DNA from: Rhodococcus gordoniae
GTDB lineage: Bacteria; Actinomycetota; Actinomycetes; Mycobacteriales; Mycobacteriaceae
Direction: 5' to 3'
Length of the DNA: 64,000 nucleotides
Assembly (NCBI RefSeq): GCF_001646655.1
Contig: NZ_LPZN01000017.1
Location: 124,001 to 188,000 of the forward strand
Part shown: positions 15,055-42,509 of the stretch, piece after piece
How positions within the stretch are numbered: the stretch's first letter is position 1
Layout: every line of letters begins with the position of its first letter
Program-made: the position numbers and the translations under genes
The notes under the pieces: generated by a model
What the model was told of the DNA's origin: nothing
The model's database searches: none
Seen by the model: the letters and a program-made list of their open reading frames with translations, nothing else

Positions 15055-15059
15055 GCTGA
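15055..15059. repeat. Target-site duplication, left copy (GCTGA)
   Basis: GCTGA directly precedes the TGTAGG left terminus of the large transposon and is repeated exactly after its right terminus at 42505-42509. Five-bp duplications are the hallmark of Tn7/Tn5053/Mu-like transposition. Confidence 0.85.
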
Positions 15060-15125
15060 TGTAGGTTCCCGCCGGAGGTGTCAGTAGTGCGGCGCACGGG
15101 CCTGCGGCTTTCCAATTTCGTGTCA
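15060..15125. repeat. Transposon left end with transposase-site repeats
   Basis: The terminus TGTAGGTTCCCGCCGGAGG is followed by TGTCAGT at 15079. A second site, CTTTCCAATTTCGTGTCA, lies at 15108-15125; its reverse complement TGACACGAAATTGGAAAG matches the repeats at the right end. These are the probable TnsB binding sites. Confidence 0.75.
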
Positions 15126-15244
15126 GTCAGGGATTCTCACGATCTTGTCGGAATCCTCAGGCATCCCGGACGATGTTTCGGTCCTGTGCCCAAGCCGCGA
15201 GAACCGAATCGAAGAGTCTGCTGCCTCGAAGCCTGAGTTCTGAC

Positions 15245-15784
15245 TCAATGCGGACGATCGAGAGTGAGCTGTCGTTCGTGGAAATCGAAATGTCTGACGG
15301 GATATCGGTACAGCTCACCAATGGTCATGTAATCGGTGAAGAACGGGTCCCAGCGCACCGGGAAGAACATTCCCCGTCCCAACGCCTGCTCCGATTCGCG
15401 TTGCAGTCGGCGGCTCAGCGCACCGATGACCCGGTCGGCTTTCGTGCCCATCCGGTTCCGGTCAAACACCAGGGCTGCAGCGCATGAACCGTAGTAATTC
15501 ACCACGTCAAAAGGCCGCGTACCGGCATCGAGGACCTGGGCGAATCGACGCTCCACTCCGGCGGGCAGCCGGCTGACCATCCGCACCAAGGGCAGCAGCG
15601 CCGCCACCACCATGTACCCGAAGACCATGTGGAACAACAGTTGCTCGTTGGTCCACCGCGTCCCCGCCGATCGACTCCGCAACGAGGTGTCGGAAGCGTC
15701 GGCGAGGAGCCGGTGCAGATGCACACGGGTGCGTTCGAGCTCGCCGGCGATAGCGGCCCTGTCCACCCGCTCGGAATGGCCCAT
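15245..15784 (-). CDS. DinB/maleylpyruvate isomerase-like metalloprotein
   Basis: 179 residues from the ATG at 15784 (MGHSERVDRAAIAGELERTR). The four-helix DinB-fold pattern is clear, with potential metal histidines in TNEQLLFHMVFGYM and in RYPVRHFDFHERQL at the C-terminus. Such proteins often act in thiol-dependent (mycothiol/bacillithiol) transfers or in detoxification. It is the first cargo gene inside the transposon's left end and reads toward that end. A thiol-linked role would suit the arsenic cargo, but that is inference. Confidence 0.7.
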   Translation of the reverse strand: MGHSERVDRAAIAGELERTRVHLHRLLADASDTSLRSRSAGTRWTNEQLLFHMVFGYMVVAALLPLVRMVSRLPAGVERRFAQVLDAGTRPFDVVNYYGSCAAALVFDRNRMGTKADRVIGALSRRLQRESEQALGRGMFFPVRWDPFFTDYMTIGELYRYPVRHFDFHERQLTLDRPH

Positions 15785-16027
15785 GATCCACCACCTGTCC
15801 AGGGAGCCGACGGCACTCGATGGCCGTCGATACCAGACTTCCCCCTCCCGGGCGGCCTCCACAACTGCCGGCCGAATTCAGTCTCATGTCGCGAATCGAT
15901 ATAGCGCCCCCGTCGACCCTCGGATGCCACGTCGGACGTACCTGCCGCAGTGGCGCGGCGCGGATCGCCGTGTCGTGACCGCCGGACGGCTGGCGTAACA
16001 GCAGCAGCGCGGGATGACGTGCGCCGC

Positions 16028-16267
16028 TCAGAGATCGAACAGCGAGAATTGGTCCTTCTGTGCTCGAGTCTCGGAGTCGGCGAGGTATCGGTCGGCCATG
16101 GCCCGGGCGACGGTTTCGTCGCAGCCGAGCTCGGCGGCGACTTCACTCCAGTCGTGTCCGTTGTGCTGGAGTTGCCACGCCAGCTGGTGCAACTGTTCGT
16201 CCATGTCCATCAGCGCCGCTCCCGCGGTCGTGTCGGCCGGAACCCGTTCGACGACGCGGGTTCTCAT
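16028..16267 (-). CDS. Small helix-turn-helix-like protein
   Basis: 79 residues from ATG 16267. The middle reads DEQLHQLAWQLQHNGHDWSEVAAELGCDETVARAMADRYL, whose second half resembles an HTH of the sigma-70 region 4/resolvase type (W..VA.ELGC....A). The tail TRAQKDQFSLFDL is a common C-terminal extension in small actinobacterial ORFs. Function unknown; it may be a regulator or accessory factor of the transposon cargo. Confidence 0.55.
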   Translation of the reverse strand: MRTRVVERVPADTTAGAALMDMDEQLHQLAWQLQHNGHDWSEVAAELGCDETVARAMADRYLADSETRAQKDQFSLFDL

Positions 16268-16361
16268 TGAGACAGATGGTAAACGCGGATGCGGGCATGC
16301 GGCGGCAGACATGCCGCCCACCGTCTCGAATCGGCGACGGATCGCACGAGAGATAGGTAAA

Positions 16362-16384
16362 CCCGCCCCCGAGGGGACGGGCGG
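16362..16384 (-). terminator. Hairpin terminating the leftward arsenic operon
   Basis: On the minus strand CCGCCCGTCCCC pairs with GGGGGCGG across a 2-base loop and is followed by GTTTACC. It lies about 55 bp past the stop of the ArsO-like gene, a natural end for that operon. Confidence 0.55.
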
Positions 16385-16437
16385 TGTGCCGTCCATGGTG
16401 TCACCGTTTCCGTGAACATCTATGGACGCAGCGCCGG

Positions 16438-17511
16438 TCAGGGACCGGTGGGCAATGCGCGTCGGGACCGGGCGGCGACCACCCGATCGGCGACCCGGCC
16501 CGCGTCGCGACCGACACCGCGCAACGACGCCGACGACAGACTGCGCTGCCATTCGAGACCGACATACCCCAGCCCCGGGGGAGTGGTGGAGAGGCCCTGC
16601 CGGCGCCGGGGCCGGCCCGTCTCGTCGAGGGCGCCGAGACCCGTCAAATAGGGCAGGTGCGGGCGATAACCGGTGCCCAACAGCACCGTGTCGGCGGTGG
16701 TGCTCGTGCCGTCGGGCCAGAACACCCGGCGATCGTCGAGCCCGGTGAACAGCGGCCGCGGCCGCGGGTTGCCGCTGGCCAGGGCGCGGCGGTAGCGGCC
16801 GGTGTCGAGGACCTGCTGGGTCGGCGGCGCAGGCAGCCACGGCCCGACCGGGGCGCGGTCGACTCCGGTGATCGTGAGCCAGAAATGCACATCACGGCCG
16901 AACGGTCGCTGCGGCAAGAACTTCGGAGGTCGGCGGCTGGCGAGGGTGACGGAGGCGACCTCGGTGAGCTCGGTGGCGATCTGCACCGCGGAGTTACCGG
17001 CACCGACCACGATGATGTTCTGACCGGCCAGCGCAGCAGGCTCGCGGTAGTCGCTGGTGTGCAGCACCGTGCCGCCGAACGTCTCCAGGCCCGGCAGCGG
17101 CGGGATATTCGGGGACCCGAAGTAGCCGGTGGCCGCGATCAGGACCGGCGCGGTGGCACTGGCACCGGCGGCGGTCTGGGCGGTGTAGACGCCCGTGTCG
17201 TAGGTAACGGTCTCGACGCGGGAGCCGGTCACGATGTCGACGTCGAGTCCGGCGGCGTAGCGACGCAGATAGTCGACCACCTCGTCGCGCCGCGGATAGC
17301 GCTGCGGGTCGCCTGGAAACGCCAGGCCCGGTAGTGCGCTGTATTTCGCCGGGGAAAACAGGGTGAGGCTGTCGTAGTAGTGCGGCCAGGCCCCGACGGG
17401 CTCGTCGCCGGCTTCGAGCAGTCCGGTGCGCAGGCCTCGGGTGGATAGGGCGTGGGCGGCGGCGAGGCCGGACTGGCCACCACCGATGACGAGGGCGTCG
17501 TAGTCGGTCAT
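16438..17511 (-). CDS. arsO: ArsO-like NAD(P)/FAD-dependent monooxygenase
   Basis: 357 residues. N-terminal FAD-binding Rossmann motif VIGGGQSGLAAAHAL, the central FATGY-like IAATGYFGSPNIPPLPG, a second dinucleotide motif IIVVGAGNSAVQIATEL and the late VLLGTGYRPHLPYLTGLG together define the flavin-containing monooxygenase/ArsO group. ArsO genes recur in ars operons and are thought to oxidise organoarsenicals or arsenite-linked metabolites; biochemical proof is limited. The start overlaps the MFS gene by ATGA. The C-terminal about 25 residues (RVADRVVAARSRRALPTGP) are basic and low-complexity, longer than needed. Confidence 0.8.
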   Translation of the reverse strand: MTDYDALVIGGGQSGLAAAHALSTRGLRTGLLEAGDEPVGAWPHYYDSLTLFSPAKYSALPGLAFPGDPQRYPRRDEVVDYLRRYAAGLDVDIVTGSRVETVTYDTGVYTAQTAAGASATAPVLIAATGYFGSPNIPPLPGLETFGGTVLHTSDYREPAALAGQNIIVVGAGNSAVQIATELTEVASVTLASRRPPKFLPQRPFGRDVHFWLTITGVDRAPVGPWLPAPPTQQVLDTGRYRRALASGNPRPRPLFTGLDDRRVFWPDGTSTTADTVLLGTGYRPHLPYLTGLGALDETGRPRRRQGLSTTPPGLGYVGLEWQRSLSSASLRGVGRDAGRVADRVVAARSRRALPTGP

Positions 17512-18743
17512 GAGGTTCCTTCAGTGGACGGAGGGGCGGTCAGGCGCGGCACGGACGCGACCGCGAGGAGCGCGGCGATCACGGCGACGACTGCGAGGAC
17601 GAGGTAAGCGGTGGCGTAGCTGCCGGTCGCCGACGCCAGGGCGGTTCCCGCCCACGGCGCCAACGCCATCACCACCACGATCGGGGCGGACATCAGCCCC
17701 CCGAGCCGGCCGTAGTGGGTCGAGCCCCACCGGTCGGTGATGGCGGTGGCCTGGATCAAGGTGAACAATCCGCGTACCAGTCCCGCGCCGATCGCCGCGC
17801 CGATCAACGCCGCGGCCGTGGTCACCGCCCCGAGCAGCGCGGTGGTTGCCGCGGTGCCGGCCAGGATCACCACGATGCGGCTGCGGACGCTGGTACGGGC
17901 GACCAGGGTCAGATAGCCGAGGCGGCCGAGGACCTGTCCGGCGCCGCCGAGCCCGAGCGTCACCGCCGCCACCGACGGGGAGAAGCCCTGTTCGAGCAGC
18001 AACGGCACCAGATTGAAGACCCCGGCGAAGGCGGTGAACGCACCGAGAGCCAACGCGGCCACCAGTGCGAGGAACGCGGGGCTGCGGGCGATCTCCCGGT
18101 GCCCCAGGGCCGCGCCGTTCGCCGGTGGGGCCGCGGTGGGCCAGGATCCGCGTAGTCCCCACCAGTGTCCGGGGATGGTGATCGCGGCGAGGATCGCCGC
18201 GAGGATCAGGTAGGTGGTGCGCCAGTCCGACTGCTGATCCACTGCGGAGGTCAAGGGGGCGAAGATGGTGCTGGCCAGGCCCGCGGCGAGGGTCAGGATC
18301 ATCAGGGCGTGCACGGAGCGGTCGCCGTACCAGCGGGTCAGCGCGGCGAACGCCGGTGGGTAGAGCACCGCGCCCATCGCGGTGCCGGCCAGCAGCCATC
18401 CGGCGTAGAACACCGGCAGCGTGGGGGCGAGCGCGATCAGGACCAGCGCGGGGACGGCGAGGACCGAGCCGGCGGTCATGATCGTGCGCGGTCCGACCCG
18501 GTCGAGGATGCGCCCGACCGGGATACCCGCGAGCGCGGTGGCGAGCTGACCGAGCGAGAACGCCGCGGTGATCGACGTGGGCGACCAGCCGGTATCGGCG
18601 GAGATCGAGACCGACAGGACCGGGAACGCGTAGTACAGGATGCCCCAGCTGGTGATCTCGGTCAGGCACAGCACCGCCAGCACCCGCCGCAGCCCGGCGC
18701 CGGTGAGAGCGCCGGGCTGCGGGCGGGTCGACGTGTCGGTCAC
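17508..18743 (-). CDS. MFS permease in arsenic cluster
   Basis: 411 residues, about twelve hydrophobic segments. The signature loop reads GIPVGRILDRVGPRTIM. ITSWGILYYAFPVLSVSISADTGWS at TM1 resembles monocarboxylate-type (MCT-like) MFS proteins. The GTG start at 18743 lies 5 bp after the upstream flavoprotein gene. Placed between two flavin monooxygenase-like genes under a divergent ArsR-type regulator, it most likely exports an arsenic species or organoarsenical; equivalent genes occur in other arsO-containing clusters. Substrate not established. Confidence 0.8.
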   Translation of the reverse strand: MTDTSTRPQPGALTGAGLRRVLAVLCLTEITSWGILYYAFPVLSVSISADTGWSPTSITAAFSLGQLATALAGIPVGRILDRVGPRTIMTAGSVLAVPALVLIALAPTLPVFYAGWLLAGTAMGAVLYPPAFAALTRWYGDRSVHALMILTLAAGLASTIFAPLTSAVDQQSDWRTTYLILAAILAAITIPGHWWGLRGSWPTAAPPANGAALGHREIARSPAFLALVAALALGAFTAFAGVFNLVPLLLEQGFSPSVAAVTLGLGGAGQVLGRLGYLTLVARTSVRSRIVVILAGTAATTALLGAVTTAAALIGAAIGAGLVRGLFTLIQATAITDRWGSTHYGRLGGLMSAPIVVVMALAPWAGTALASATGSYATAYLVLAVVAVIAALLAVASVPRLTAPPSTEGTS

Positions 18744-18748
18744 CGGCG

Positions 18749-20095
18749 TTATCCGCCGGTGCGGGAGAGGGTGACCAACTGCGGCTCGGGCGCACCGCAG
18801 CACCCACCGGCCGCGGCCTCGGTGGCGGTGTCGGCGGCGGGGTCGTCGAACACTCCGGCGCCGCCGCACACCCCGGTCTCGGGCAGGGTCAGCTCGACGC
18901 GGGCGGCGGCATCGTGGTCGCCGGCCAGGGCGGCGGCGATGCTGCGGACCTGCTCGTAGCCGGTCATCGCCAGGAACGTCGGGGCCCGCCCGTAGCTCTT
19001 CATCCCGACCACATAGAAGCCGGGTTCGGGGTGGGTGAGCTCGGCGACGCCGTGCGGGTAGACGGTCCCGCACGAGTGCACGTTCGGGTCGATCAGCGGG
19101 GCGAGCGCGGTCGGGGCCTGCAGCACCGGGTCGAGGTCGAGACGGATTTCCGAGAGCCACGACAGGTCCGGCCGGAAGCCGGTCGAGGCGATGACCTCGT
19201 CCACCGCCTCGAGGCGGGCGCCGGTATCGGACACCATGACGACCTGACCGTCGGTGGCGGGTTCGACGGCGGCGGTGCGGAACCCGGTGACCACGGTGAG
19301 CAGCCCGTCGTCGACGGCCTTTTTCGCGCGCAGTCCCAGGGCGCCGCGGGCAGGCAGTTGGTCGTCCTGGCCGCCGCCGAACGCGGCGCCGACCTCGCCG
19401 CGGCGCACCGCCCAGGTCAGCCGGGTGCCGGGGTCGGTGCGGGCGAGCTCGGCCAGCGCCACGATCGCGTTGAGTGCCGAGTGGCCGCTACCGGCGATGA
19501 CGGTGTGCCGGCCGGCGTAGCGGTCGCGCACCGCATCGTCGCCCAGGTCGGGGACGCGGTAAGTGATCTTCTCGGCTGCGGCGCGTTCCCCGAGGGCGGG
19601 CAGGCCTTCGCCGCCGAGCGGGTTGGGAGTGCCCCAGGTGCCGGAGGCATCGAGGACGGCGCGGGCGAGCAGGCGGGTTTCCGTGCCGTCGCGGTGGCGC
19701 ACGTGCACCGACAGGGGTTCGGTGTCGCGGCCGGCGTCGACGATGCGGTCGCGGCCGCGGCGAGCGATGCCGACGACCTCGTGATCGAGGCGGACCGCGT
19801 CACCGAGAGCATCCGCCAGTGGGGTCAGGTACTGCCCGGCCCAGTCCTGGCCGGTGGGGTAGGCGTCGTCCTCGGGCGCGGTCCAGCCGGTGGTGTCGAG
19901 GAGGCGGCGGGCGGCGGGGTCGATCAGTTCGGCCCAGCGGGAGAAGGTGCGGACGCTGTGCCATTGCGTGATGGCGGCTCCGGCGGCGTCGCCGCGTTCG
20001 AGCACCAGCGGTTCGAGGCCGCGTTCGCGCAGGTGGGCGGCGGCGGCCAGGCCGATCGGTCCCGCTCCGACGACGACAATGGGCAACTCGCTCAT
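18749..20095 (-). CDS. FAD-dependent oxidoreductase with cysteine-rich tail
   Basis: 448 residues. It opens with IVVVGAGPIGLAAAAHLRER (FAD site) and carries VIAGSGHSALNAIVAL (second nucleotide site), ASTGFRPD and GFYVVGMKSYGRAPTFLAMTGYEQ. It ends with GVCGGAGVFDD and AAAGGCCGAPEPQLV, vicinal cysteines that could bind trivalent arsenic. It is first in the minus-strand operon, facing the arsR-arsN fusion across three operator-like repeats. Similar flavoproteins are annotated near ars genes as FAD-dependent oxidoreductases of unknown substrate. The ATG at 20095 has GAAAGGATC upstream. Confidence 0.8.
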   Translation of the reverse strand: MSELPIVVVGAGPIGLAAAAHLRERGLEPLVLERGDAAGAAITQWHSVRTFSRWAELIDPAARRLLDTTGWTAPEDDAYPTGQDWAGQYLTPLADALGDAVRLDHEVVGIARRGRDRIVDAGRDTEPLSVHVRHRDGTETRLLARAVLDASGTWGTPNPLGGEGLPALGERAAAEKITYRVPDLGDDAVRDRYAGRHTVIAGSGHSALNAIVALAELARTDPGTRLTWAVRRGEVGAAFGGGQDDQLPARGALGLRAKKAVDDGLLTVVTGFRTAAVEPATDGQVVMVSDTGARLEAVDEVIASTGFRPDLSWLSEIRLDLDPVLQAPTALAPLIDPNVHSCGTVYPHGVAELTHPEPGFYVVGMKSYGRAPTFLAMTGYEQVRSIAAALAGDHDAAARVELTLPETGVCGGAGVFDDPAADTATEAAAGGCCGAPEPQLVTLSRTGG

Positions 20096-20108
20096 GACAG
20101 ATCCTTTC

Positions 20109-20184
20109 ATCGATGGGTATCGATCTAATCTGCTGTCAGAGTATCGATGGTCGTCGATGTATGCAACCATCGATGCCGATCGAT
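20109..20184. promoter_or_regulatory. Triple ArsR operator between divergent ars genes
   Basis: Three 16-bp dyads of the form ATCGAT-N4-ATCGAT lie in the 100-bp divergent gap: 20109-20124, 20143-20158 (one mismatch, right half GTCGAT) and 20169-20184. This is the layout expected for a dimeric winged-helix repressor controlling both directions, here presumably the ArsR domain of the adjacent fusion. Confidence 0.7.
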
Positions 20185-20195
20185 ATAGTGGGGGT

Positions 20196-21083
20196 ATGAC
20201 AGCACTCGGTCTACCGATCACGGCGACCCCCGGCGCGGAGGTGGACCTCGACGCCCTGAGCCCGCAGGACGCGGCCACCTACGCCGGATGGTTCGCCTGC
20301 CTGGCCGAACCCACGCGGGTGCGGCTGCTGCACCACGTTGCCGCGCATCCGTCCGGCATCACCGTCGGCGAGCTCGCCGACAGGCTTGGGATCGGCCAGC
20401 CCACCATCTCCCATCACGTCCGCAAACTCGCCGACGTCGGCTTCGTCACCACCGGCAAACAGGGCACCAGCACCGTGGTGCGGATCAACCCGAGCTGCTG
20501 CAGCGACCTGCCCAGTGCCGCCGATGCGGTCATGGGGGTGCTCACCGCCCGCCCGTGCTGCCCCGAGGACGTCCCCGCCGACGTGGCCGTGCGCCCACTC
20601 GCAGGCGGTGACTGGGAGGCGGTGCGCCGCATCTACGCCGACGGCATCGCCACCGGCGCCGCGACGTTCACCACCGAAGTCCCCAGCCGCGACCACCTCG
20701 AGCACCAGTGGTTGCCCGAGCATCGCTGGGTCGCCGAGATCGACGGACAGGTCGTCGGCTGGGCAGCCTTGAGCCCGGTATCGAACCGCGAGTGCTATCG
20801 GGGGGTGGCCGAAAATTCGGTGTATGTCGGCGACGGCATGCGCGGGCGCGGCGTCGGCAAGGCCCTGCTGCGCACCCAGGTCATCGCCGCCGATCAGGGC
20901 GGATTGTGGACGCTGCAGACCTCGATTTTCCCGGAGAACCGGGCCAGCCTGGCGCTGCACCATTCGGCGGGTTTCCGCACCGTGGGGGTGCGCGAACGCA
21001 TCGGCCGGCTCGACGGCATCTGGCGCGACACCGTGCTGCTCGAACGCCGCTCCGAGGCCGTTCCCGCCACCGAGAACCAGTGA
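20196..21083 (+). CDS. ArsR repressor fused to ArsN-like GNAT acetyltransferase
   Basis: 295 residues in two parts. Residues about 28-100 are an ArsR winged helix (FACLAEPTRVRLLHHVA, VGELADRLGIGQPTISHHVRKL) followed by Cys-rich NPSCCSDLPS and ARPCCPEDV, candidate arsenite or organoarsenic ligands. From about residue 128 a GNAT domain begins (VRPLAGGDWEAVRRIYADGI), with the acetyl-CoA site MRGRGVGKALLRTQV. This GNAT subgroup includes phosphinothricin acetyltransferase and ArsN1, which detoxifies arsinothricin. The fusion would join sensing to detoxification. ATG 20196 follows GGGGGT; alternatives upstream would cross the operators. Confidence 0.85.
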   Translation: MTALGLPITATPGAEVDLDALSPQDAATYAGWFACLAEPTRVRLLHHVAAHPSGITVGELADRLGIGQPTISHHVRKLADVGFVTTGKQGTSTVVRINPSCCSDLPSAADAVMGVLTARPCCPEDVPADVAVRPLAGGDWEAVRRIYADGIATGAATFTTEVPSRDHLEHQWLPEHRWVAEIDGQVVGWAALSPVSNRECYRGVAENSVYVGDGMRGRGVGKALLRTQVIAADQGGLWTLQTSIFPENRASLALHHSAGFRTVGVRERIGRLDGIWRDTVLLERRSEAVPATENQ

Positions 21084-21100
21084 GAGCGAATCGGGTGGAG

Positions 21101-21412
21101 ATGGACATCGAACTGCCGTACTTCGACGGCTGCCCGAACTGGGAGCTGATGCGCGACCGCCTCGCCGAGGCCCTGGCAGCGACCGGCAACGCCGGTACCC
21201 CGATCCGGCTGCGCCGTATCGAGACCCCGGAGGCCGCCGAGCGCGTCGCCTTCCCCGGATCCCCGACCATCCGCATCGACGGGACCGATCCGTTCGGCCC
21301 CACCGAGGGCGTCGGATTGACGTGCCGCGTCTACCGCACCGCCGACGGGCACGGGGGTGTCCCGAGCACCGCCGATCTGATCACCGTGCTGCGGCAGGCC
21401 GAACACCGGTAG
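21101..21412 (+). CDS. Thioredoxin-like small protein of metal clusters
   Basis: 103 residues: MDIELPYFDGCPNWELMRDR, ETPEAAERVAFPGSPTIRIDG, then LTCRVYRTADG. It follows a thioredoxin-like fold pattern with one cysteine at the usual first position (FDGCPNW) and the cis-proline region GSPTI. Similar proteins are encoded next to mercury and arsenic resistance genes in actinobacteria; activity unknown. It lies 17 bp after the arsR-arsN stop and is surely co-transcribed. A GTG six bases upstream is an alternative start. Confidence 0.7.
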   Translation: MDIELPYFDGCPNWELMRDRLAEALAATGNAGTPIRLRRIETPEAAERVAFPGSPTIRIDGTDPFGPTEGVGLTCRVYRTADGHGGVPSTADLITVLRQAEHR

Positions 21413-21427
21413 AGACCGGGTATCGGC

Positions 21428-21460
21428 TTGACCTTCGAGTCGACTCGAGGGTTCACCGTC
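21428..21460. promoter_or_regulatory. Inverted repeat in convergent gap
   Basis: TTGACC at 21428 overlaps the dyad CCTTCGAGTCGACTCGAGGG (21432-21451). The position between two convergent genes suggests a bidirectional terminator; the TTGACC plus central dyad also looks like a MerR-type operator, though no merR gene is nearby. Undecided. Confidence 0.4.
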
Positions 21461-21485
21461 GCGGAGTGAGCATGCTCCTCCGGGG

Positions 21486-22325: not shown

Positions 22326-22364
22326 GAGAAGAAGGAACTCGTTTCGGATCGATCGGACGGCGGT

Positions 22365-24512: not shown

Positions 24513-24561
24513 CGCAAAGCCTCCTGGGGTGGCGGGCCGAGTGGAAACCGGGTGGTACCGG

Positions 24562-25272: not shown

Positions 25273-25349
25273 GAGTGGATCCTTTCCTCGAACGGTCAGA
25301 GCCCAGGTGAACCAACGACGGGGTATCCCCGCATCCGGCGCACCCCGGA

Positions 25350-31956: not shown

Positions 31957-31964
31957 GCGTCTAT

Positions 31965-31992: not shown

Positions 31993-32019
31993 CCGAGAAC
32001 CTCGGGAAGGACCACTCTC

Positions 32020-32442: not shown

Positions 32443-32500
32443 CCGAGTTCGTCCCGGAAACTCTGTTCGCCCTCGAGCACTGAAGGAATACCTGATACCT

Positions 32501-32893: not shown

Positions 32894-32950
32894 CCATGTA
32901 GATCCGTATCCCGCCCGCCGATACCCGTCCGACGAGGAGTACCTGTTTTC

Positions 32951-34744: not shown

Positions 34745-34814
34745 TCCGCCAGCACCGGGCCGGGTCGTCCACTCATGTCGTTCGTGTGAGACATGCCTGA
34801 AGCCACGATTCGGA

Positions 34815-35162
34815 TCACGCTGTGCCAGTGAGGACGTCGGTCAGATCGGCGGGAATCGGCATGGGGGTCATCAACCCTGCAGCGACGCGGCCGGTGTTGC
34901 CTTCGGGGTAACCCCCGAGCGCGGAACCGGGGGCAGCAACCATGATCCGGATGATCTGCCCAAGGGCTTCGCGACGGTCGCGTTGACGCACCGCGAGACC
35001 GAGCATGGCGAGGTGATTGCGAGTGTGCGGCCACGGGTAGGGCTGCGACAGGATGTGCGCGCGTTCGAGATGGGTCCACCGCTCGGCTGCAGTGTGAGTG
35101 TGTCGAGCGGCGGTCATCTCCGCGGCATACCAGGCTCGGACAGTTGCAGGCATTGGACTCAT
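34815..35162 (-). CDS. DUF3703 protein of metal-resistance clusters
   Basis: 115 residues. The block AERWTHLERAHILSQPYPWPHTRNHLAMLGLAVRQRDRREALGQIIRIM, followed by APGSALGGYPEGNTGR, matches DUF3703 (PF12487), small proteins commonly beside heavy-metal P-type ATPases and mercury genes. The conserved H/R-rich centre suggests ligand binding but function is unknown. It lies 10 bp downstream of the ATPase gene in the same operon and converges with arsA. Confidence 0.8.
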   Translation of the reverse strand: MSPMPATVRAWYAAEMTAARHTHTAAERWTHLERAHILSQPYPWPHTRNHLAMLGLAVRQRDRREALGQIIRIMVAAPGSALGGYPEGNTGRVAAGLMTPMPIPADLTDVLTGTA

Positions 35163-35172
35163 GGAAGGCCCT

Positions 35173-37137
35173 TCAGGAAGAAAAGGATTCTCGTACCCCA
35201 GGATTCGACGCAGGTGCCGCCGATCCGGAGATTGTCAGGGGGCGAGCGCGTCCGGCGCGGACCCCGTTGGCGATCACGATGATCTCGGCGACCTCGTGAA
35301 CCAGGACAACCGCCGCCAGGCCGAGTACCCCGAACAGGGCCAGGGGCATCAGGACGGTGATGATCGCGAGCGAGAGGCCGACGTTCTGCAACATGATCGT
35401 TCGTGATCGGCGGGCATGCTGCAGGGCTTGAGGTAGATGCCGTAGGTCCTCACCCATCAGGGCGACGTCGGCGGTTTCGATGGCCACGTCGGTGCCCATC
35501 GCGCCCATCGCGATCCCCAGATCGGCGGTGGCCAGGGCCGGGGCGTCGTTGACACCGTCGCCGACCATCGCCGTCGGCCGTGTACCGCGGAGGGTGTCGA
35601 TGATGTGGGCCTTGTCCTCCGGACGCAGATCGGCGTGCACCTCGTCGATACCGACATCGGTGGCCAACGCTCGTGCGGTGCGCTCGTTGTCGCCGGTGAG
35701 CATCGCCACGGTGTAACCGTCGCGGCGCAGCCCCGCGACGACGTCGCGGGCTTCGGGACGCAGTTCGTCGCGCACCGCGATCGCCCCGATCAGGGTGCCG
35801 TCGCGTTCGATGAGCACCGCAGTGGCTCCGGCGTGCTGCATCCGCTCGATATCGGCAGCCAGAGAGCCCGGGTCGATCCACCCGGGCCGGCCCAGACGGG
35901 CAGGAATGCCGCCGACGTGACCGGTCAGTCCGGCACCGGGGACCGCGTCGACGTCCTCGGCGGGGGTGTAGTCGTCGACGGCGGCGAGGATCGCTGCAGC
36001 GAGGGGGTGCTCACTGCGTGCCTCGAGCGCAGCGGCGACATTCAGAACGTCGGCGCGGGTGGCGCCGCCGGTGGTGGCAACGTCGATGACCTCGGGGCGG
36101 TTCCGGGTCAGGGTGCCCGTCTTGTCCAACGCGACGGTGCGGATCCGGCCCAACGCTTCGAGGGCGGCACCGCCCTTGACCAGGACGCCGAGCTTGGAGG
36201 CGGCGCCGATCGCGGCGACCACGGTCACCGGGATCGCGATGGCCAGCGCACACGGGGACGCGGCGACCAGCACGACGAGGGCGCGTTCGATCCACACCAG
36301 CGGATCACCGAATACGCTGCCGATCGCGGCGATCAACGCCGCGGCAACCATCACTCCCGGCACCAGGGGCTTGGCGATCTTGTCGGCCAGACGCTGGGCC
36401 TCGCCCTTGCGGGATTGCTCGGCCTCCACGATTTTCACGATCTTGGCCAGCGAGTTGTCCTGCGCGCCGGCGGTGACCTCGACCTCGAGCACGCCGGTGC
36501 CGTTGATCGACCCGGCGAACACCTCGGAGCCCGGTCCGGCCTCGACCGGCACCGATTCCCCGGTGATCGCGGAGGTGTCCAGGGCGGTGCGCCCGGTGCG
36601 GATGGTGCCGTCGGTGGCGAGCCGCTCCCCGGGTTTGACGATCATGATCTCCCCGAGCCCCAACTCCGCGGGGGCGACGGTCTGTTCACGGCCGCCGCGC
36701 AGGACGGTGGCAGTGTCCGGCACCAGATTCAGCAGGGCGCGCAGGCCCCGTCGGGTGCGAGTGACCGCGTACTCTTCGAGACCCTCACTGATGGCGAACA
36801 GGAACGCGAGCATCGCGGCTTCGCCGACCTCGCCGAGCAGCACGGCGCCGACGGCAGCGATCGTCATCAGGGTCCCGACCCCGATCTTGCCGCGGGCCAG
36901 CCGCTTGAGGGTCGAGGGGACGAAGGTGTAGCCGGCGACGACCAGCGCCACCGCCTCGAAGCCCGTCCCGAGAGCGTCGGGCCCACCGGTGACGCGGACG
37001 ATCAGGGCCGCAATCAGCAGGACACCCGCGGCGGCGGCCGCCCGGATCTCGGTGACCTGCCACCACTTGTCGGGCTCCTGGTCGTCTTCGCCCTCGACGC
37101 GGGGTTCGTCGGGGCCGCATCCGCAGGCGTCGCTCAT
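35173..37137 (-). CDS. cadA: Cd2+/Zn2+/Pb2+-exporting P-type ATPase
   Basis: 654 residues of P1B-2 type. Membrane metal motif SPC (LVAASPCALAIAIP), TGES, DKTGTLT, SEHPLAAAIL and GDGVNDAPALATADLGIAMG are present. The last helix carries LVHEVAEIIVIANGVRAGR; the HE pair is typical of bacterial Cd/Zn ATPases. The N-terminus starts MSDACGCGPDEP with a short Cys motif but no full heavy-metal-associated domain. The ATG at 37137 overlaps the repressor stop (ATGA), so it is coupled to the CmtR-like regulator. Confidence 0.9.
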   Translation of the reverse strand: MSDACGCGPDEPRVEGEDDQEPDKWWQVTEIRAAAAAGVLLIAALIVRVTGGPDALGTGFEAVALVVAGYTFVPSTLKRLARGKIGVGTLMTIAAVGAVLLGEVGEAAMLAFLFAISEGLEEYAVTRTRRGLRALLNLVPDTATVLRGGREQTVAPAELGLGEIMIVKPGERLATDGTIRTGRTALDTSAITGESVPVEAGPGSEVFAGSINGTGVLEVEVTAGAQDNSLAKIVKIVEAEQSRKGEAQRLADKIAKPLVPGVMVAAALIAAIGSVFGDPLVWIERALVVLVAASPCALAIAIPVTVVAAIGAASKLGVLVKGGAALEALGRIRTVALDKTGTLTRNRPEVIDVATTGGATRADVLNVAAALEARSEHPLAAAILAAVDDYTPAEDVDAVPGAGLTGHVGGIPARLGRPGWIDPGSLAADIERMQHAGATAVLIERDGTLIGAIAVRDELRPEARDVVAGLRRDGYTVAMLTGDNERTARALATDVGIDEVHADLRPEDKAHIIDTLRGTRPTAMVGDGVNDAPALATADLGIAMGAMGTDVAIETADVALMGEDLRHLPQALQHARRSRTIMLQNVGLSLAIITVLMPLALFGVLGLAAVVLVHEVAEIIVIANGVRAGRARPLTISGSAAPASNPGVRESFSS

Positions 37138-37505
37138 GCCGTCACTCCCGTGTCGGTGTCGGTGCCGTAGTTCGGGCACAGCGCGACGGCGTTGCCCGTG
37201 GCGGCCAGGAGGGTTTCGGCCGAGGCCAGCAGGTCGAGCAGTTCCAGTCGGGCCAGCGAGTAGAACACCTGCCGGCCCTGCGGGCGGCCTTGCACCAGGC
37301 CGCAGTCCCGCAGGCATGCCACGTGCGCCGACACTGTCGATTGCGCCAATCCCAGCTCGCCGACCAGGTCCGCTACTCGGGATTCCCCGGCGGCGAGGCG
37401 GCGCACGATGGCCAGGCGGGTGCCGTCGGAGAGACTGTGGAACAACGCTGCTGCAGAGTCGAGACTTTCACCGAAGCAGGTCGTCGCTCGCTCATTCATC
37501 GTCAT
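37134..37505 (-). CDS. cmtR: CmtR-like Cd/Pb-sensing ArsR-family repressor
   Basis: 123 residues. ArsR-family winged helix: LFHSLSDGTRLAIVRRLAAGE, LGLAQSTVSAHVACLRDCGLV, and a wing QGRQVFYSL. The recognition helix Cys-x3-Cys (ACLRDC) together with a C-terminal cysteine (AVALCPNYG) reproduces the three cysteine ligands described for mycobacterial CmtR, a cadmium/lead sensor. It heads the operon with cadA and DUF3703. Start ATG 37505 or the next ATG two codons in. Confidence 0.85.
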   Translation of the reverse strand: MTMNERATTCFGESLDSAAALFHSLSDGTRLAIVRRLAAGESRVADLVGELGLAQSTVSAHVACLRDCGLVQGRPQGRQVFYSLARLELLDLLASAETLLAATGNAVALCPNYGTDTDTGVTA

Positions 37506-37653
37506 AAAACGATGATATTGAGGAAACATGATTAATCAAGCGGAGGGAGCGGGACAACGCGCGTTCTACTCCGCCAGTGCGGACTCCGACAACGGTCGCG
37601 AATGATGACGGCTGGCGGATTCTCGGACCGGCTCGTCACGACTCAAGGGACGT

Positions 37654-38520
37654 TCACAGACTGGCCGGCTGGCTCCCAGCCTGGAACGGCCAACGGGTCG
37701 CATGCCAGTTCTGCCTCGCGGGAGGATCGCCTTGCTCAGACTGTCCAGGCCGGTCGCCAGGTCCTCGCACGGGAGAGCCGATCGTGTCGACGAATCGACG
37801 GCACAGCTCGTCGAGCACCTCGGTGATGGGCATGTCGGTGGTGCCGTAGCGCAACTGTCGGCTCGGCTGAAGGTCGGCGAGGGCAGCGAACTCGATCAGA
37901 TTCTGCTGGGCATGACACAGCTTCGCCGGTGCAGCGAGGACAGCAGCGTCACGCAGGTCGTATCGGCAGAACGGTCTCACACGCCCCGGGCGTTGCGGTT
38001 CGCGAGCATGGCGCTGCGGGCACTGCCACGGCGGGGCCAGAGCGCTCATCCACGCCGTTCCTGTCCACGGCACCTGACCGCAGCCTTCGCATGTCGACTG
38101 CAGATACACCTGGTGGCGTACACAGAGCGGCAGCAGCGGATTGGCCCAGCCTGCATGCCACCACGGATCGGGTTCGGCCAGGCATCGGGCACAGAAACGC
38201 GATCCTCCCCGGTCGGGCCGAATGTGGCGGTGGTGCACCAGGTACCGTGCCGCGGCGGCATCGATCGGCCGGCCCCACAGGGCGGCGCGCAGGTCACCGG
38301 CAGGGACACCGAGGTAAGCGGCGATCCACCGAGCGTGCAGGCTCAGGTGCTCGAGAACGAGGTGATATCCGGTCGGGCTCCGCGGCACACGGAGCTCGCG
38401 CAAAATCTGGATCGGGGTCAGTTGGTAGCGACAGCCGACGCGCATCAGCCAGCCCGGCAGATACTCGGCGGGATGTAGTTGCACGGTGATCGGCCACCGG
38501 TCGACTCTTATCGTGGCCAT
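37654..38520 (-). CDS. tniQ: TniQ/TnsD-like target-selection protein
   Basis: 288 residues from ATG 38520 (MATIRVDRWPITVQLHPAEYLPGWLMRVG); a longer frame from 38598 would overlap tnsC by 32 bases. The zinc-binding part is visible: FCARCLAEPDPWWHAGWANPLLPLCVRHQVYL, then CEGCG, the C-x2-C...C-x2-H...C-x2-C layout of TniQ. At under 300 residues it resembles short TniQ proteins of Tn5053-type and CRISPR-associated elements more than full TnsD. It likely recognises the target and recruits TnsC. The end (RPGQSEQGDPPARQNWHAT) appears disordered. Confidence 0.85.
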   Translation of the reverse strand: MATIRVDRWPITVQLHPAEYLPGWLMRVGCRYQLTPIQILRELRVPRSPTGYHLVLEHLSLHARWIAAYLGVPAGDLRAALWGRPIDAAAARYLVHHRHIRPDRGGSRFCARCLAEPDPWWHAGWANPLLPLCVRHQVYLQSTCEGCGQVPWTGTAWMSALAPPWQCPQRHAREPQRPGRVRPFCRYDLRDAAVLAAPAKLCHAQQNLIEFAALADLQPSRQLRYGTTDMPITEVLDELCRRFVDTIGSPVRGPGDRPGQSEQGDPPARQNWHATRWPFQAGSQPASL

Positions 38521-38566
38521 AGTGGTTCCCCAACCACTGAGCCGGCCAGGGCGGGACCAGCCGGTA

Positions 38567-39631
38567 TCAGCCGGTGCGGGCGGCGGATTCGCTGGCATTG
38601 TCGACGGTCGCGGTCGTAATCAACTCAGCAGTGACGGCTTCGACGCCGGTGACGATCGCGAGATACGAGATCCGGTCGAGCAGATTCGTCAACGACGCGA
38701 TCCGCCCCTGGGTGCGGCGGTGCAGCAGCCGAGCATGCTCGCACAGCATCCCGTCATGGCTGCCGGCGAGGGTGAGGTGTTCTTCGGCGGTGCGCAGCAG
38801 CGCGAGCCAGCCGCGCATCCCGGTGTCGGTGTCGATGCTGAACGGGGCAACCGGGCAGCGGGTGGCGCGGCGGCTGGTCTGGGCGTAGACGGTGTGCTCG
38901 CCGAGCAGGCCTTCGTCGAAGAAGCGTTTGGCGGTCAGATTCACCCCGACGTAAATGAAGGTAGCGGCCATGTCGTTGGCCAAACCCTTGAGATGGTTCG
39001 ATACCTCCAGGCCGTTGCGGTGCCGGAAGTCGACGAAGTGCAGATCGTCGAGCACGATCAACCGGGTACCGCAGGAGGTGACACAGTCCACCGCCAAGGC
39101 CCCGAGTTTCGAGGTGGAGGCACGGTCCACGGCCGGATGGCCGTAGAACCGCAGGATCTGCTGATTGAGGCCTTTGAGGGTGACCCCGGCGCTGAGCGGG
39201 ATGAACGCCACCGGCCACCGTTGATGCCCCTCCACGGTGAGGGGTCCGTCGCGGCGCAGAACTCGCCGGTGGACGTCGCGGGCATAGCGGGTGGCGATGG
39301 TGGTCTTGCCGAGGCCGGGTTCGGCGTCGATGACCACCGAGCCGCGCAGCTTGTCGCCGTCCCGATACGCCGAGGCCATCACCTGATCGCAGATCCCGTA
39401 GGCGGCGGCGAGTTGGCTGGTCTTGATCGTCGGCAGGTTCGCGTTCCACACCATCCGGGCTTCGTTGTAGTCCTCGAGCTCCTCCTGCGACAGTCGGGAC
39501 ATCGCGGTGCGGGAGAGGACCTCGAACGGTTCACGCGGTGGGGCGGTGACGAAGGCGTGCCAGCCCTGTTTGCGGGAGAGCTGGTAGCGGACAGTGCCAT
39601 ACGTTGCCAGCCAGGTGGCCCAGGGGTTCAT
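38567..39631 (-). CDS. tnsC: TnsC/TniB-like AAA+ transposition regulator
   Basis: 354 residues from ATG 39631, overlapping the tnsB stop by ATGA. AAA+ ATPase: Walker A VVIDAEPGLGKTTIATRYA (about residue 100), Walker B TRLIVLDDLHFVDF, and sensor region MAATFIYVGVNLT. TnsC links the target protein (TniQ) to the transposase TnsB and activates insertion. The N-terminal YNEARMVWNANLPTIKTSQ is the typical lead-in segment of TniB/TnsC. Confidence 0.92.
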   Translation of the reverse strand: MNPWATWLATYGTVRYQLSRKQGWHAFVTAPPREPFEVLSRTAMSRLSQEELEDYNEARMVWNANLPTIKTSQLAAAYGICDQVMASAYRDGDKLRGSVVIDAEPGLGKTTIATRYARDVHRRVLRRDGPLTVEGHQRWPVAFIPLSAGVTLKGLNQQILRFYGHPAVDRASTSKLGALAVDCVTSCGTRLIVLDDLHFVDFRHRNGLEVSNHLKGLANDMAATFIYVGVNLTAKRFFDEGLLGEHTVYAQTSRRATRCPVAPFSIDTDTGMRGWLALLRTAEEHLTLAGSHDGMLCEHARLLHRRTQGRIASLTNLLDRISYLAIVTGVEAVTAELITTATVDNASESAARTG

Positions 39632-41682
39632 TCGTCGAACACCTCGAACACGTCTTCGTCGGGATGCTCCGCGTAGTACCGGTCGAATACGTCGACGTCG
39701 TCGACCACCTCCAACCGTTGAGTTCGACTGGTGGCGAGTTCGTCGAGCAGCTCGGCGACGCCCGGCACGGACGCAGTGTCGCGTTCGTCGTCGATACCGG
39801 ACTGCTGTCCTTCGGTTTCCGGATGCGGGCGGTGGGCACTGAGTCGGCGGGCCAGGGCGCGGTCGCGGCGTGTCGCGACGTCGTCTCGGCTCCACGCGAG
39901 CAGCAGATCCCGTACCGCGGCGGCGGGATCGAAGTGGCGATGCTCGCGCACGGCGATGCGTTTGGCGTAGTCGGCGGCGTCCCTGCTGAACGGCTGGTTC
40001 AGGCAAGCGCCGTGCTCCCACACCAACTGATGCCAACGGTGGCTGTCCGGGTCCTGGAACCAGGCGTGCCGGATGTCGTGATTGTCGACGAAGATCGGCC
40101 ACTTGCCGGCGTGCACACCGCCATACGGCGAACGGGTGGTGCGATACAAGGTGAGCCCGGATCCGTCGTAACGCAGTCCGTCGACCTCGACGCCGTAGTG
40201 CTGGATCGTACGCCAACGCACATCGAGGAACTCATACGCCAGATCCGGATTCGCCGGCAACAGCAGACCACCCGATTTGGCGACCCCGATCTCGAACATC
40301 TCGCTCGGCGAAAACCCCACCCGCGGCAGTTCCGGCACGCACAGCCCGTCATGTCGGGTGTGGTGATAGACCCGGCCCACCCATTCCCGGATGATCTGCT
40401 CGAGTTCGCTGGCGTAGTAGAACGCGGCGTCTTCGACGTCTTTGCCCCGTGAGTACACGTCCGGGCCCTTGTAGGCGGGCAGGTGCTGTAGCAGTGATTC
40501 GCGCAGGGTGCGGAAGAAGCGTTCGACGGTGGGTTTGTCGGTGGGCTTGTGCGGGATCGCCGGCTGAACGGTGATACCCAGTCGGGCGCAGACTCCGATC
40601 ACATGAGAGGACAGGTACTGCTTGCCGTGATCGACGACGATCGCCTCGGGCAGACATGCCGGTAGATCCCCGACGCGTCGCTGGGAGATCCCGTCCGGGG
40701 ACTCGGTGCCGACGAGCAGGTTTCGCGGCACCCCGTGATACGGCCAGAGTTGATCCGCAGTCGGGTCGGTGTCGCGGGCGGGAGTGATGCACTGGTACAG
40801 CACATTCGCCACGTCCTGGGACCGCGTCGATAGCGGTGTCAGGCGCAGTCCGAGGATGCAGCGGGTGAACAGGTCCATCGCCACGGTCAACTCCACCCCA
40901 ACCCAGCGCATGGTGACCGGTTCCATCGCGAACACATCCAGCGCGGTGGTATCGAGCACCACGTACTCCCCCGGACGGGTCGCGCGCAGTCGGCCGAGGA
41001 CACCGCGGGGCCGGTCCGCCACCGACCGCCGGCCTTTCGCGCTACCGAACGCGTGCCGCCCCTTCGACAATGTCTTCACCCGCCGGTATGCCGTGCTCAG
41101 GGAGGGCAACGGCACCATGCCCGGCCCGAATTCTGCTTCCAGGTCCTTGGCAACGGCATCGATGACCGCGCCGATCGTCGGGGTCGAGACGGTGACGTAC
41201 CTATCGAGCACCCGCACACATGCTGCGTCCCACCGGTGATCGACACTGGTGGCGTAGCGGCTACGGATCCGACTGTCCGTGAGTCCGGCAACTCCTGCCG
41301 CGCGGTATCCGGCGATCCAGCGGTACAGGGTGCGCACAGAGACGTGAAGTTCCGCCGCTCTGGTGGCCAACACCGATTCGAGTTCGGCGCCGGAGGTCGC
41401 AACCTCGGTCAGGATGCCGCGGACGTGTTCGGCTCGTGTTTCCAGTTCCTGAATCTGGGTTGCGGTCAGCGAGGAGAGCACTACGGCAGCAGGGTCAGCG
41501 GAGGCGGTGTCGTCCGGCGGTGAGATCGCTGTTCCCCGTGCCGCGATCTCGGTGACCGCGACACGCTGCATCCGCTCTCCGGACCGGAGGGTGACATCGT
41601 GTCCCTGCAGCGCCACGACTTCCCATGAGCAGCCGTCGAGCCAGACCTTGATTCCTGCACGTAGTTCGACGATGTTGGTCAC
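39628..41682 (-). CDS. tnsB: TnsB-like DDE transposase
   Basis: 684 residues from a GTG at 41682, preceded by AAGGAGCACGCC and overlapping the tnsA stop (GTGA). N-terminal DNA-binding region with HTH-like VSVRTLYRWIAGYRAAGVAGL (about residue 140). RNase H-fold core: first Asp in EYVVLDTTALDVF, second Asp in AIVVDHGKQYLSSHVIG, Glu in KPTDKPTVERFFRTL. The C-terminal Mu-type beta-barrel follows. It binds the end repeats, cuts the 3' ends and joins them to the target with 5-bp staggering, matching the observed duplication. Confidence 0.93.
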   Translation of the reverse strand: MTNIVELRAGIKVWLDGCSWEVVALQGHDVTLRSGERMQRVAVTEIAARGTAISPPDDTASADPAAVVLSSLTATQIQELETRAEHVRGILTEVATSGAELESVLATRAAELHVSVRTLYRWIAGYRAAGVAGLTDSRIRSRYATSVDHRWDAACVRVLDRYVTVSTPTIGAVIDAVAKDLEAEFGPGMVPLPSLSTAYRRVKTLSKGRHAFGSAKGRRSVADRPRGVLGRLRATRPGEYVVLDTTALDVFAMEPVTMRWVGVELTVAMDLFTRCILGLRLTPLSTRSQDVANVLYQCITPARDTDPTADQLWPYHGVPRNLLVGTESPDGISQRRVGDLPACLPEAIVVDHGKQYLSSHVIGVCARLGITVQPAIPHKPTDKPTVERFFRTLRESLLQHLPAYKGPDVYSRGKDVEDAAFYYASELEQIIREWVGRVYHHTRHDGLCVPELPRVGFSPSEMFEIGVAKSGGLLLPANPDLAYEFLDVRWRTIQHYGVEVDGLRYDGSGLTLYRTTRSPYGGVHAGKWPIFVDNHDIRHAWFQDPDSHRWHQLVWEHGACLNQPFSRDAADYAKRIAVREHRHFDPAAAVRDLLLAWSRDDVATRRDRALARRLSAHRPHPETEGQQSGIDDERDTASVPGVAELLDELATSRTQRLEVVDDVDVFDRYYAEHPDEDVFEVFDE

Positions 41683-42401
41683 GGCGTGCTCCTTACACCG
41701 GACACCTGCGACTGTCCGGACAGCGGCACCGTCAGGTCCACCGACCACAGACCGGACCACAGCTTCGCCAGCACCGCGATTCGCGAGCCGGGCCTGTTCA
41801 CCGATGCGGCGAGGTCGTCGAGGGTCATCCCGGGCACTGCGACGCTGTCGAGTGCCCTCATCACCGCGGGGTCGATCCACTCGCTACGACGAGCGCCCCC
41901 GAGGATTCGGAGGTTCGCCAGCACTACTGGGTTTGCACCGGTCCACACTTCATACGACCAGCCCCGACTCGAACACAGTCGTTCGGTCCAGGCGAACACC
42001 TGCGCAACTGCGTCGCGACGGGCGAACTCGGCGGGTTTGACGTCGACGACCGTGAATCCGCCGTCTGTGCGTTGGAGCAGCAGATCGGGCGCATGCCGAC
42101 GCATGGTCTTCCCGTCCGGGCCGCACAGCCACATCGGCTGTGCGGCGATCCGCACCACTTCCGGTGCGTAGTCCGCCAGCCACAACCGGTCCAGTTCGAG
42201 TCGGCTCTCGTAGAGGACGTGGCCACGGTTGGTGGCCGACCAGAACATCCCGGAATAGTGGCGCTGATGGGGGTGACTGCGGACTTTCCGTACCGGCAGG
42301 CCCAGGATCATCCGATAGGGATCTGCCGCAGCGAGGGTCGTCGCGACAGGATCACCTGATTCCTGCACGTACCTGACCTCAACCTCGCTGGTCCGGGGCA
42401 C
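41679..42401 (-). CDS. tnsA: TnsA-like endonuclease
   Basis: 240 residues. Restriction-endonuclease fold typical of TnsA N-domain (PF08722): Glu in VLYESRLELDRLWLADYAPE, Asp in RRHAPDLLLQRTDGG, and the D-x-K of FTVVDVKPAEFARR. The C-terminal part is compact (SEWIDPAVMRALDSVAVPGMTLDDLAASV). It cuts the 5' ends so that transposition is cut-and-paste. It is the gene nearest the right terminus, 20 bp from the first end repeat, as in Tn7. Confidence 0.88.
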   Translation of the reverse strand: MPRTSEVEVRYVQESGDPVATTLAAADPYRMILGLPVRKVRSHPHQRHYSGMFWSATNRGHVLYESRLELDRLWLADYAPEVVRIAAQPMWLCGPDGKTMRRHAPDLLLQRTDGGFTVVDVKPAEFARRDAVAQVFAWTERLCSSRGWSYEVWTGANPVVLANLRILGGARRSEWIDPAVMRALDSVAVPGMTLDDLAASVNRPGSRIAVLAKLWSGLWSVDLTVPLSGQSQVSGVRSTP

Positions 42402-42420
42402 TTTTTCAGGGTCCCGCTAC

Positions 42421-42504
42421 TGACACGAATTTGAGAAACCGACACGCCGCTGACAGGCGACTGACATGAAATTGAGAAACTGACACCGAATCCGAGAACC
42501 TACA
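42421..42504. repeat. Transposon right end with three tandem transposase sites
   Basis: Three 19-bp repeats of the form TGACAYGAAATTGAGAAAC: 42421-42439 (TGACACGAATTTGAGAAAC), 42462-42480 (TGACATGAAATTGAGAAAC) and 42481-42499 (TGACACCGAATCCGAGAAC), the last merging into the CCTACA terminus. An uneven number of sites (about two left, three right) matches Tn7-type end asymmetry. Confidence 0.85.
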
Positions 42505-42509
42505 GCTGA
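42505..42509. repeat. Target-site duplication, right copy (GCTGA)
   Basis: Identical to 15055-15059 and directly abutting the ACA terminus; with its partner it fixes the transposon boundaries. Confidence 0.85.

Follow-up and report, generated by a model that had tools for sequence, protein, structure and literature searches.

Introduction

Target choice is the reason why Tn7-like elements are studied. Tn7 itself carries tnsA-tnsB-tnsC beside its right end, leaves a 5-bp duplication and, through a targeting protein with a TniQ domain, inserts at a fixed distance from its target glmS in one orientation. The Tn5053/Tn402 family comprises the res-site hunters, which have their own resolvase TniR and no TnsA, and Tn5053 uses a resolvase at res; such hunting is said to figure in titles by Minakhina (1999) and Petrovski (2010). 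Here we describe a Tn7-like transposon in a stretch of Rhodococcus gordoniae DNA of 64,000 nucleotides (contig NZ_LPZN01000017.1, positions 124,001 to 188,000), which as a whole is called the window below. The element has a short TniQ and is very probably directed to a single type of target on Rhodococcus plasmids, in which a conserved box adjoins the inverted repeat of a Cre-like tyrosine recombinase and the insertion point is about 38 bp upstream of the box.

Papers referred to by PMC number are cited from extracts. Tn6022, which targets comM, pairs its short TniQ with TnsF, a tyrosine recombinase that it encodes in inactivated form; small size of TniQ is regarded as characteristic of elements using another selector (PMC10293859). 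Tn7706 of R. erythropolis, described in 2026, is a Tn7-like element of 19.4 kb with tnsA, tnsB, tniB and tniQ, for which flank exchange between plasmids is reported (PMC12915292). The R. equi plasmid pVAPB1413, compared here by its description, carries a 27-kb insertion for which the extract proposes no target mechanism (PMC5434932). A 2021 survey recognized an Actinobacteria-dominated Tn7-like clade and stated, of the clade and not of the present element, that it had no experimentally characterized member (PMC8649781).

Boundaries, copies and empty site

The 27,445-bp TnsA/B/C/TniQ element is a real mobile unit. As a first-pass annotation of this DNA had proposed, it begins with TGTAGG at 15060, finishes with CCTACA at 42504, is flanked by exact copies of GCTGA and has repeated inner sites, of which the right end holds three copies of a 30-nt unit (60-87% identity to the reference copy).

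15060..42504, no strand: Tn7-like transposon TGTAGG...CCTACA, 27,445 bp, by comparison of ends and copies
15055..15059, plus: GCTGA, left copy of the 5-bp target duplication (present once in the empty site of locus L118)
42505..42509, plus: GCTGA, right copy of the 5-bp target duplication
15060..15250, plus: left end region (same letters in the copies of genomes G001, G010 and G011; first 183 bases in G017)
42400..42504, plus: right end region with repeated inner, putatively TnsB-binding sites

TGT...ACA ends with repeated inner sites and a 5-bp duplication, the joint encoding of TnsA, TnsB, TnsC and TniQ, and a right end that adjoins tnsA and faces the target landmark all mark the element as Tn7-like. 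No Cas family was found among its open reading frames scanned with Pfam, and it is not classed as a CRISPR-associated transposon; ArsR gave one match below the cut-off to a Csa3 helix-turn-helix in NCBIfam.

The annotation had suggested looking for the empty site in related genomes, and it is present on R. ruber Y14 plasmid unnamed3 (L118), where the flanks of the window are joined around a single GCTGA with 120 of 120 bases identical. Beyond these bases, identity is 94% over 2 kb on the left and 88% over 1 kb on the right, and the plasmid keeps the box and the recombinase without the element. Cargo contiguous with both flanks and lacking these ends, named by the annotation as the finding that would speak against it, was not seen in the DNA compared; most of the cargo is found again, at 93-98% identity, between these ends in other locations. 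Ends, duplication, empty site and recurring copies together support the annotation's reading of a boundary-resolved Tn7-like metal island.

A 110-bp query from the right end matched 9 of 41 genomes, all nine within the genus (18 genus genomes searched, own included), and the transposition module matched 81 PLSDB plasmids, five of them at ≥99%. For comparison, 48 relative loci were taken from genome contigs. Among the large complete copies, those in G010, G011 and G001 span 99-100% of the element with 93-98% identity per block, except for one 289-base block of G010 at 77%; the G017 copy covers 72% (blocks 92.6-100% identical), and two plasmid copies, compared in part, cover about 90%. Outside the element, the backbone of the window is similar to Rhodococcus plasmids: 54% of the part between 2 and 14.8 kb matches R. 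gordoniae NZ_CP101468.1 at 99.5%, and 55% of that between 46 and 63.9 kb at 97.1%.

Exact 5-bp repeats, each different, flank 8 of the 12 copies for which both ends were available, more than chance would give: GCTGA in the window, CAAAC in G017, TCTCA in G001, GCGCG in G011, CTGAG in G010, CCTGG in G041, CCAGG in G042 (ends on two contigs) and ACCAG in a 1.17-kb derivative on contig C71. Flank repeats are mismatched in the other four, on pGD02.2.2, R. pyridinivorans YF3 plasmid 4 and pNAPH (L076, L078 and L080) and in G014. The flanks of the three plasmid copies suggest exchange between plasmids, and non-matching flanks fit recombination between copies of the kind reported for Tn7706 (PMC12915292). 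The derivative on contig C71, which belongs to the same genome as the window (L026 6150-7320), is internally deleted, has both ends and a tnsA fragment, and is stacked at a second recombinase site.

A fixed landing point beside a plasmid recombinase gene

At copies linked to a recombinase the layout is the same throughout: the right end, a spacer of variable sequence and near-constant length, GTCACTCAYGGTTTGTGCGG, and an inverted repeat, for example GCTAAT-TGCC-ATTAGC. The spacer is poorly conserved, the box and the repeat highly so. A tyrosine recombinase gene starts 116-128 bp past the site start in 26 of 38 distinct sites. In the window the corresponding features are:

42543..42562, plus: conserved target box GTCACTCACGGTTTGTGCGG, 38 bp past the right end
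42567..42593, plus: imperfect inverted repeat GGTGCTGCTAAT-TGCC-ATTAGCGCACC, candidate recombinase site
42667..43575, plus: N-terminal part of the target Cre-like tyrosine recombinase gene, which an IS3-family element interrupts

For the 131-bp target region, matches are present in 12 of the 18 genus genomes (21 in total, some without the box) and in 49 plasmids, all of them from Rhodococcus. Seventeen of these 49 were picked by hand from the list in two batches, with their upstream flanks unseen and with records known to carry the element left out; the target query starts 25 bp outside the transposon and thus holds no transposon sequence. A recognized transposon end lies 31-42 nt from the model start in 16 of the 17 (CCTACA in 11, CATCTCRACA in 7, both in 2), against an expected rate for CCTACA of 0.0013 per 8-base window on these plasmids. 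Chance insertion beside a recombinase was rejected on this comparison.

When all 38 distinct box sites are counted, those reached through the transposon included, 22 have CCTACA, 9 the other end and 28 either one. The spacing is nearly fixed: among 20 distinct spacers behind CCTACA, 19 measure 35-38 nt to the model start (38-41 bp to GTCACTC) and one measures 31 nt (34 bp). Orientation is uniform, in that the right end points to the box in every copy of this family found there, and a left end (TGTAGG) faces the site in none of 39 upstream regions. A right-end profile finds 17 of these 39 regions at E <0.001, six of the 17 having seeded the profile.

The recombinase has Cre as its closest solved protein (E 5.3e-6), and an intact relative in L078 matches Phage_integrase (PF00589) above the cut-off; by eye its sequence shows the H-x-x-R, H and Y motifs of this family. 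In the window an IS3-family element (about 43576-45030) breaks the gene after some 300 codons, and neither the second half nor the partner gene was found there by tblastn. That partner, Int2 (L078 26203-27213), is the second gene of the recombinase pair and is locally about 30% similar to the recombinase; it has no Pfam match and no catalytic domain in Pfam, and may perhaps be an inactive partner. Three loci (L105, L106 and L114) have the recombinase and the inverted repeat but lack the box and differ in the left half, as if the DNA on the left had been swapped by recombination at the repeat. One weak promoter was predicted in the target. On pDF03 the relaxase gene, of interest because the box might be an oriT, lies about 10 kb away.

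Stacking and shared use of the spot

The window and the empty site of L118 have on their left flank the right end of an older element, CCTACACC, which in the window is part of a relic:

14841..15052, plus: relic of an older element, 212 bp, with left-end-like and right-end-like sequence, at the same target

An older right end likewise forms the DNA to the left of the element in G010, G017 and C71, so the newcomer inserted between the older element and the target. In the window the old and new landing points differ by 2 bp. Neither the target site nor the relic and the stacking figured in the annotation.

The same site is used by mini-elements of about 180 bp, TGTCGAGATGCAG...CTGCATCTCGACA, with a CAAAC duplication in pDF03, whose TnsA lies outside the TGTCGAG mini-element. 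Three of them (L127 1279-1457, L128 1278-1456 and L129 from 1280) are inserted in or beside older CCTACA ends. A divergent TnsABC set in G007 (TnsB about 34% identical) occupies the same place in the same orientation, its end CACTACA lying, by eye, 36 nt from the model start. In this genome (L113 8347-16500) two divergent TnsABC sets face one box from both sides, and a piece of tnsA of the window's family lies further left; in G015, only pieces of a divergent tnsA and tnsB are present, on the far side of the box.

Other mobile elements thus use the spot too, among them a second family of ends and a divergent TnsABC set, which suggests that these elements find plasmids by recognizing the control site of that recombinase. 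The stacked insertions suggest that at least diverged relatives are not kept out by target immunity, and that metal-resistance islands on Rhodococcus plasmids may build up by repeated landing and stacking at one hot spot.

Sites and copies that do not fit

Several observations weigh against the targeting proposed here. Neither end pattern is found at the expected spacing in 10 of the 38 distinct box sites, 24 counted sites seeded the target model that later found them, and many plasmid sites may inherit one old insertion and hence not all be independent. No box adjoins the copies in G011, G041, Millisia (G042) and Gordonia p1 or the related R. qingshengii pLP1 element, and the G010 copy has next to it a degenerate box that the model missed, with the recombinase some 4.5 kb beyond. 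For eight boxes, the 1.8-6 kb of downstream DNA examined contain no recombinase gene; at two of these boxes (G007 and G015) one is present on the same strand, about 5 and 10 kb downstream.

Insertion is thus not confined to boxes; in G011 the element sits inside a reading frame that is TauD-like by eye. The pLP1 element (L153 1-1780) has dnaK and a general stress protein gene 2-4 kb from tniQ, perhaps as cargo.

Transposition genes and recognition of the target

The annotation had placed tnsA-tnsB-tnsC-tniQ beside the right end, and all four genes are there:

41679..42401, minus: tnsA (Pfam PF08722 25.5 bits, just missing the cut-off of 26.5; NCBIfam NF033179 TnsA_like_Actin 199.8 bits, cut-off 110)
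39628..41682, minus: tnsB (rve and helix-turn-helix matches only, below threshold; solved TnsB proteins match, best E 5.7e-14)
38567..39631, minus: tnsC (TniB family, AAA)
37654..38598, minus: tniQ (TniQ family), short core form, 289-314 aa according to the start chosen (start uncertain)

Coordinates and translations agree with the 4-base overlaps also claimed, GTGA between tnsA and tnsB (41679-41682) and ATGA between tnsB and tnsC (39628-39631). The predicted structure of TniQ is a bare TniQ core with no order past residue 276; the protein lacks a C-terminal part of about 280 residues that is present in long relatives. It was clearly placed only by the VIA second look, as against solved structures phmmer gave no match at E up to 5 and Foldseek none at E <0.001. 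No other target selector and no tnsE were seen within the element, and neither a resolvase nor tnsF was found among the element genes scanned or compared; the neighbouring gene is not comM.

By analogy with Tn7, TnsA and TnsB would excise the element and join it to its target by cut-and-paste, TnsC would link them to the target, and TniQ would find it; for Tn7 these roles are established (see also PMC10293859). Because a core-only TniQ is thought to need a selector and none was seen in the element, an outside selector is most readily sought in the plasmid recombinase, presumably bound to the inverted repeat next to the box. The recombinase bound to its own site would then be a beacon for TniQ/TnsC, a proposal by analogy that we hold tentatively, as falling slightly short of an even chance. 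In this the element would resemble Tn5053, the res-site hunter, with a tyrosine recombinase in the role of the resolvase; elsewhere it can insert without such a site.

A serious rival is that TniQ, with TnsC, reads the DNA of the box itself, the recombinase protein having no role and its gene being a safe neighbour of a plasmid landmark; we regard this as clearly possible, with a probability well under even. The box, which is not palindromic, shows slightly stronger conservation than the repeat (means of about 1.5 and 1.3 bits), a difference that also counts against the beacon, and in the loci with a repeat and no box (L105, L106 and L114) the 130 bases upstream contain neither end pattern; L150 and L151, which have a recombinase without a box, fall outside this comparison, as the pattern used did not match their repeat. 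In addition, ends are present at some boxes that have no recombinase gene close by (L031 and L136). Direct reading sits less easily with a TniQ that lacks so much of the long form, with the fact that the R. zopfii TniQ is only about 46% identical (TnsB 75%) yet is found at the same target, and with the use of one spot by two families of ends and a divergent TnsABC set.

The order of events might also be the reverse, a mobile recombinase unit joining the right ends of transposons or homologous recombination between plasmids spreading one ancient junction. The different left halves of the recombinase unit in the three loci without a box and the recombined look of the flanks on pGD02.2.2, YF3 plasmid 4 and pNAPH would suit such an origin, which is nevertheless improbable in view of the exact and differing duplications at a box (window, G001, G017), at a degenerate box (G010) and at the C71 derivative, of an empty site with box and recombinase in place, and of twenty different spacers of near-constant length. 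Untargeted Tn7-like insertion with a coincidental recombinase neighbour, which the four near-identical copies and the pLP1 element away from any box might favour, is made extremely improbable by the flank-blind plasmid sites and is refuted for the window site unless the spacing was inherited throughout.

Relatives with a long TniQ at HspR-type operators

Relatives with the same TnsABC group and similar ends mostly encode a TniQ of 516-707 aa, about twice the size of that in the window. The right flanks of 23 loci of this TnsB group were examined (L035-L056 and L075). The gene after the right end is dnaK in 19 of the 23 (18 by tblastn, L050 by its first residues), clpB in one (L040 6459-9095) and lon in one (L037 6601-9090); in L047 and L048 another left end follows the right end, and these two stand outside the 21 loci with an assigned target. 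GTTGAG, the start of an HspR-type operator, lies at +54 to +61 from the right end in all 21 (+54 to +58 in 19), and a GGGAAT-like sequence lies at +29 to +37 in 19, being absent from L036 and L038. The tniQ frame is split in L045, and L054 has no tniQ in the DNA examined. Further relatives are of a Microbacterium type (L057-L070 and L072-L074).

In Streptomyces coelicolor the dnaK, clpB and lon promoters were the only ones known to be bound by HspR until a ChIP study added sites, and the minimal operator is TTGAGY-N7-ACTCAA (PMC2687793). Since the three genes form one regulon, the operator or promoter, and not the gene, is the likely target of the long-TniQ relatives, as judged from sequence. 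The dnaK gene itself was rejected as their target, as clpB and lon replace it in two loci where the operator is kept.

A TnsB tree of 33 rows, rooted for drawing only, unites the short-TniQ group (five rows, four at the box) in one clade with 100/100 support, and the C-terminal half of TniQ may have been lost in this branch along with the switch of target. The clade appears to read operator-like, protein-bound repeats, the Rhodococcus branch pairing a short TniQ with plasmid recombinase sites. It is conceivable, although we think it rather doubtful, that this actinobacterial Tn7-like clade senses operators occupied by protein, the long TniQ recognizing HspR-bound dnaK, clpB and lon operators and the core TniQ using the plasmid tyrosine recombinase or Int2 as outside selector. 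If so, an outside recombinase selector would be a natural precursor of TnsF, a later element having captured the inactivated recombinase.

Metal-resistance cargo

The metal genes are passenger cargo of the transposon. Most were confirmed by Pfam or NCBIfam, and the remainder were named from an annotated copy on pGD02.2.2 that is 98% identical.

37134..37505, minus: ArsR/SmtB metalloregulator (family match)
35173..37137, minus: cadmium-type P-type ATPase (TIGR01512 above cut-off)
34815..35162, minus: DUF3703 protein (family match)
32951..34744, plus: arsA (family match)
32501..32893, plus: arsD (start set by comparison with pGD02.2.2)
32020..32442, plus: low-molecular-weight phosphatase, arsenate reductase-like (pGD02.2.2 comparison and family scan)
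31543..31956, minus: arsR (family match)
30470..31546, minus: ACR3-type arsenite efflux protein, SBF family (family match, pGD02.2.2 comparison)
29794..30519, minus: ArsC-like phosphatase (family match)
29332..29766, minus: arsC-like (family scan)
28045..29193, plus: sensor histidine kinase, start approximate (family match, pGD02.2.2 comparison)
27350..28051, plus: response regulator, start approximate (family match, pGD02.2.2 comparison)
25350..27147, minus: multicopper oxidase and SHOCT-domain protein (SHOCT 26.8 bits, cut-off 27)
22365..25260, minus: copper-type P-type ATPase and DUF305 protein, upper limit approximate (family match, pGD02.2.2 comparison)
16438..22325, no strand: F510_1955 glycosylhydrolase-like and thioredoxin-like proteins (both by comparison only), ArsR-GNAT fusion, FAD oxidoreductases and MFS transporter

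These genes form an ArsR-ACR3-ArsC-ArsD-ArsA module, a copper system with response regulator and histidine kinase, a cadmium-type ATPase with ArsR/SmtB, and a FAD/MFS/ArsR-GNAT module. The copper system with its own two-component pair and the cadmium ATPase are as first annotated. Of the two arsenic systems proposed there, the ArsR-ACR3-ArsC-ArsD-ArsA set holds, and the module at 16.4-21.4 kb is linked to arsenic by resemblance only; it includes an ArsR-type regulator fused to a GNAT acetyltransferase domain (20205-21080).

Comparison with known systems

The metal element itself is, as the annotation put it, little described in the literature searched, which is not true of its kind, given an NCBIfam TnsA family, the 81 PLSDB plasmids and Tn7706. 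We found no report of such a recombinase-site target, or of an HspR-operator target, among the open-access papers listed in our searches; the kind of transposon is known, and its target logic appears to be new.

The element resembles Tn7 in its tnsABC genes at the right end, its 5-bp duplication, its TniQ-domain protein, and insertion at a fixed distance in one orientation. It differs in that no tnsE was seen, in having a core-only TniQ in place of a full TnsD, and in using a plasmid recombinase site and not glmS. With Tn5053/Tn402 it shares a TniQ without a further selector in the element, the ability to insert elsewhere and, by position, a landing point at what is here a candidate site of a plasmid's site-specific recombinase, whereas it has TnsA and no resolvase was seen in it, and the host enzyme is a Cre-like tyrosine recombinase and not a serine resolvase.

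Like Tn7706, as far as the extract describes it, the element is Tn7-like, resides on Rhodococcus plasmids, has tnsA, tnsB, tniB and tniQ and shows signs of flank exchange between plasmids; by the same description it is set apart by its size (27,445 bp versus 19.4 kb) and by its target, no recombinase-linked one being described there. Tn6022 likewise combines a short TniQ with targeting tied to the tyrosine-recombinase fold, but its TnsF is its own, has no catalytic site and serves insertion at comM, while the recombinase here belongs to the plasmid. The long-TniQ actinobacterial relatives, with a TniQ of 516-707 aa and a chromosomal HspR-operator target, differ from the present element in both respects, so that one group offers a natural pair, long TniQ with heat-shock operators and short TniQ with plasmid recombinase sites, in which recognition by a short TniQ becomes directly testable.

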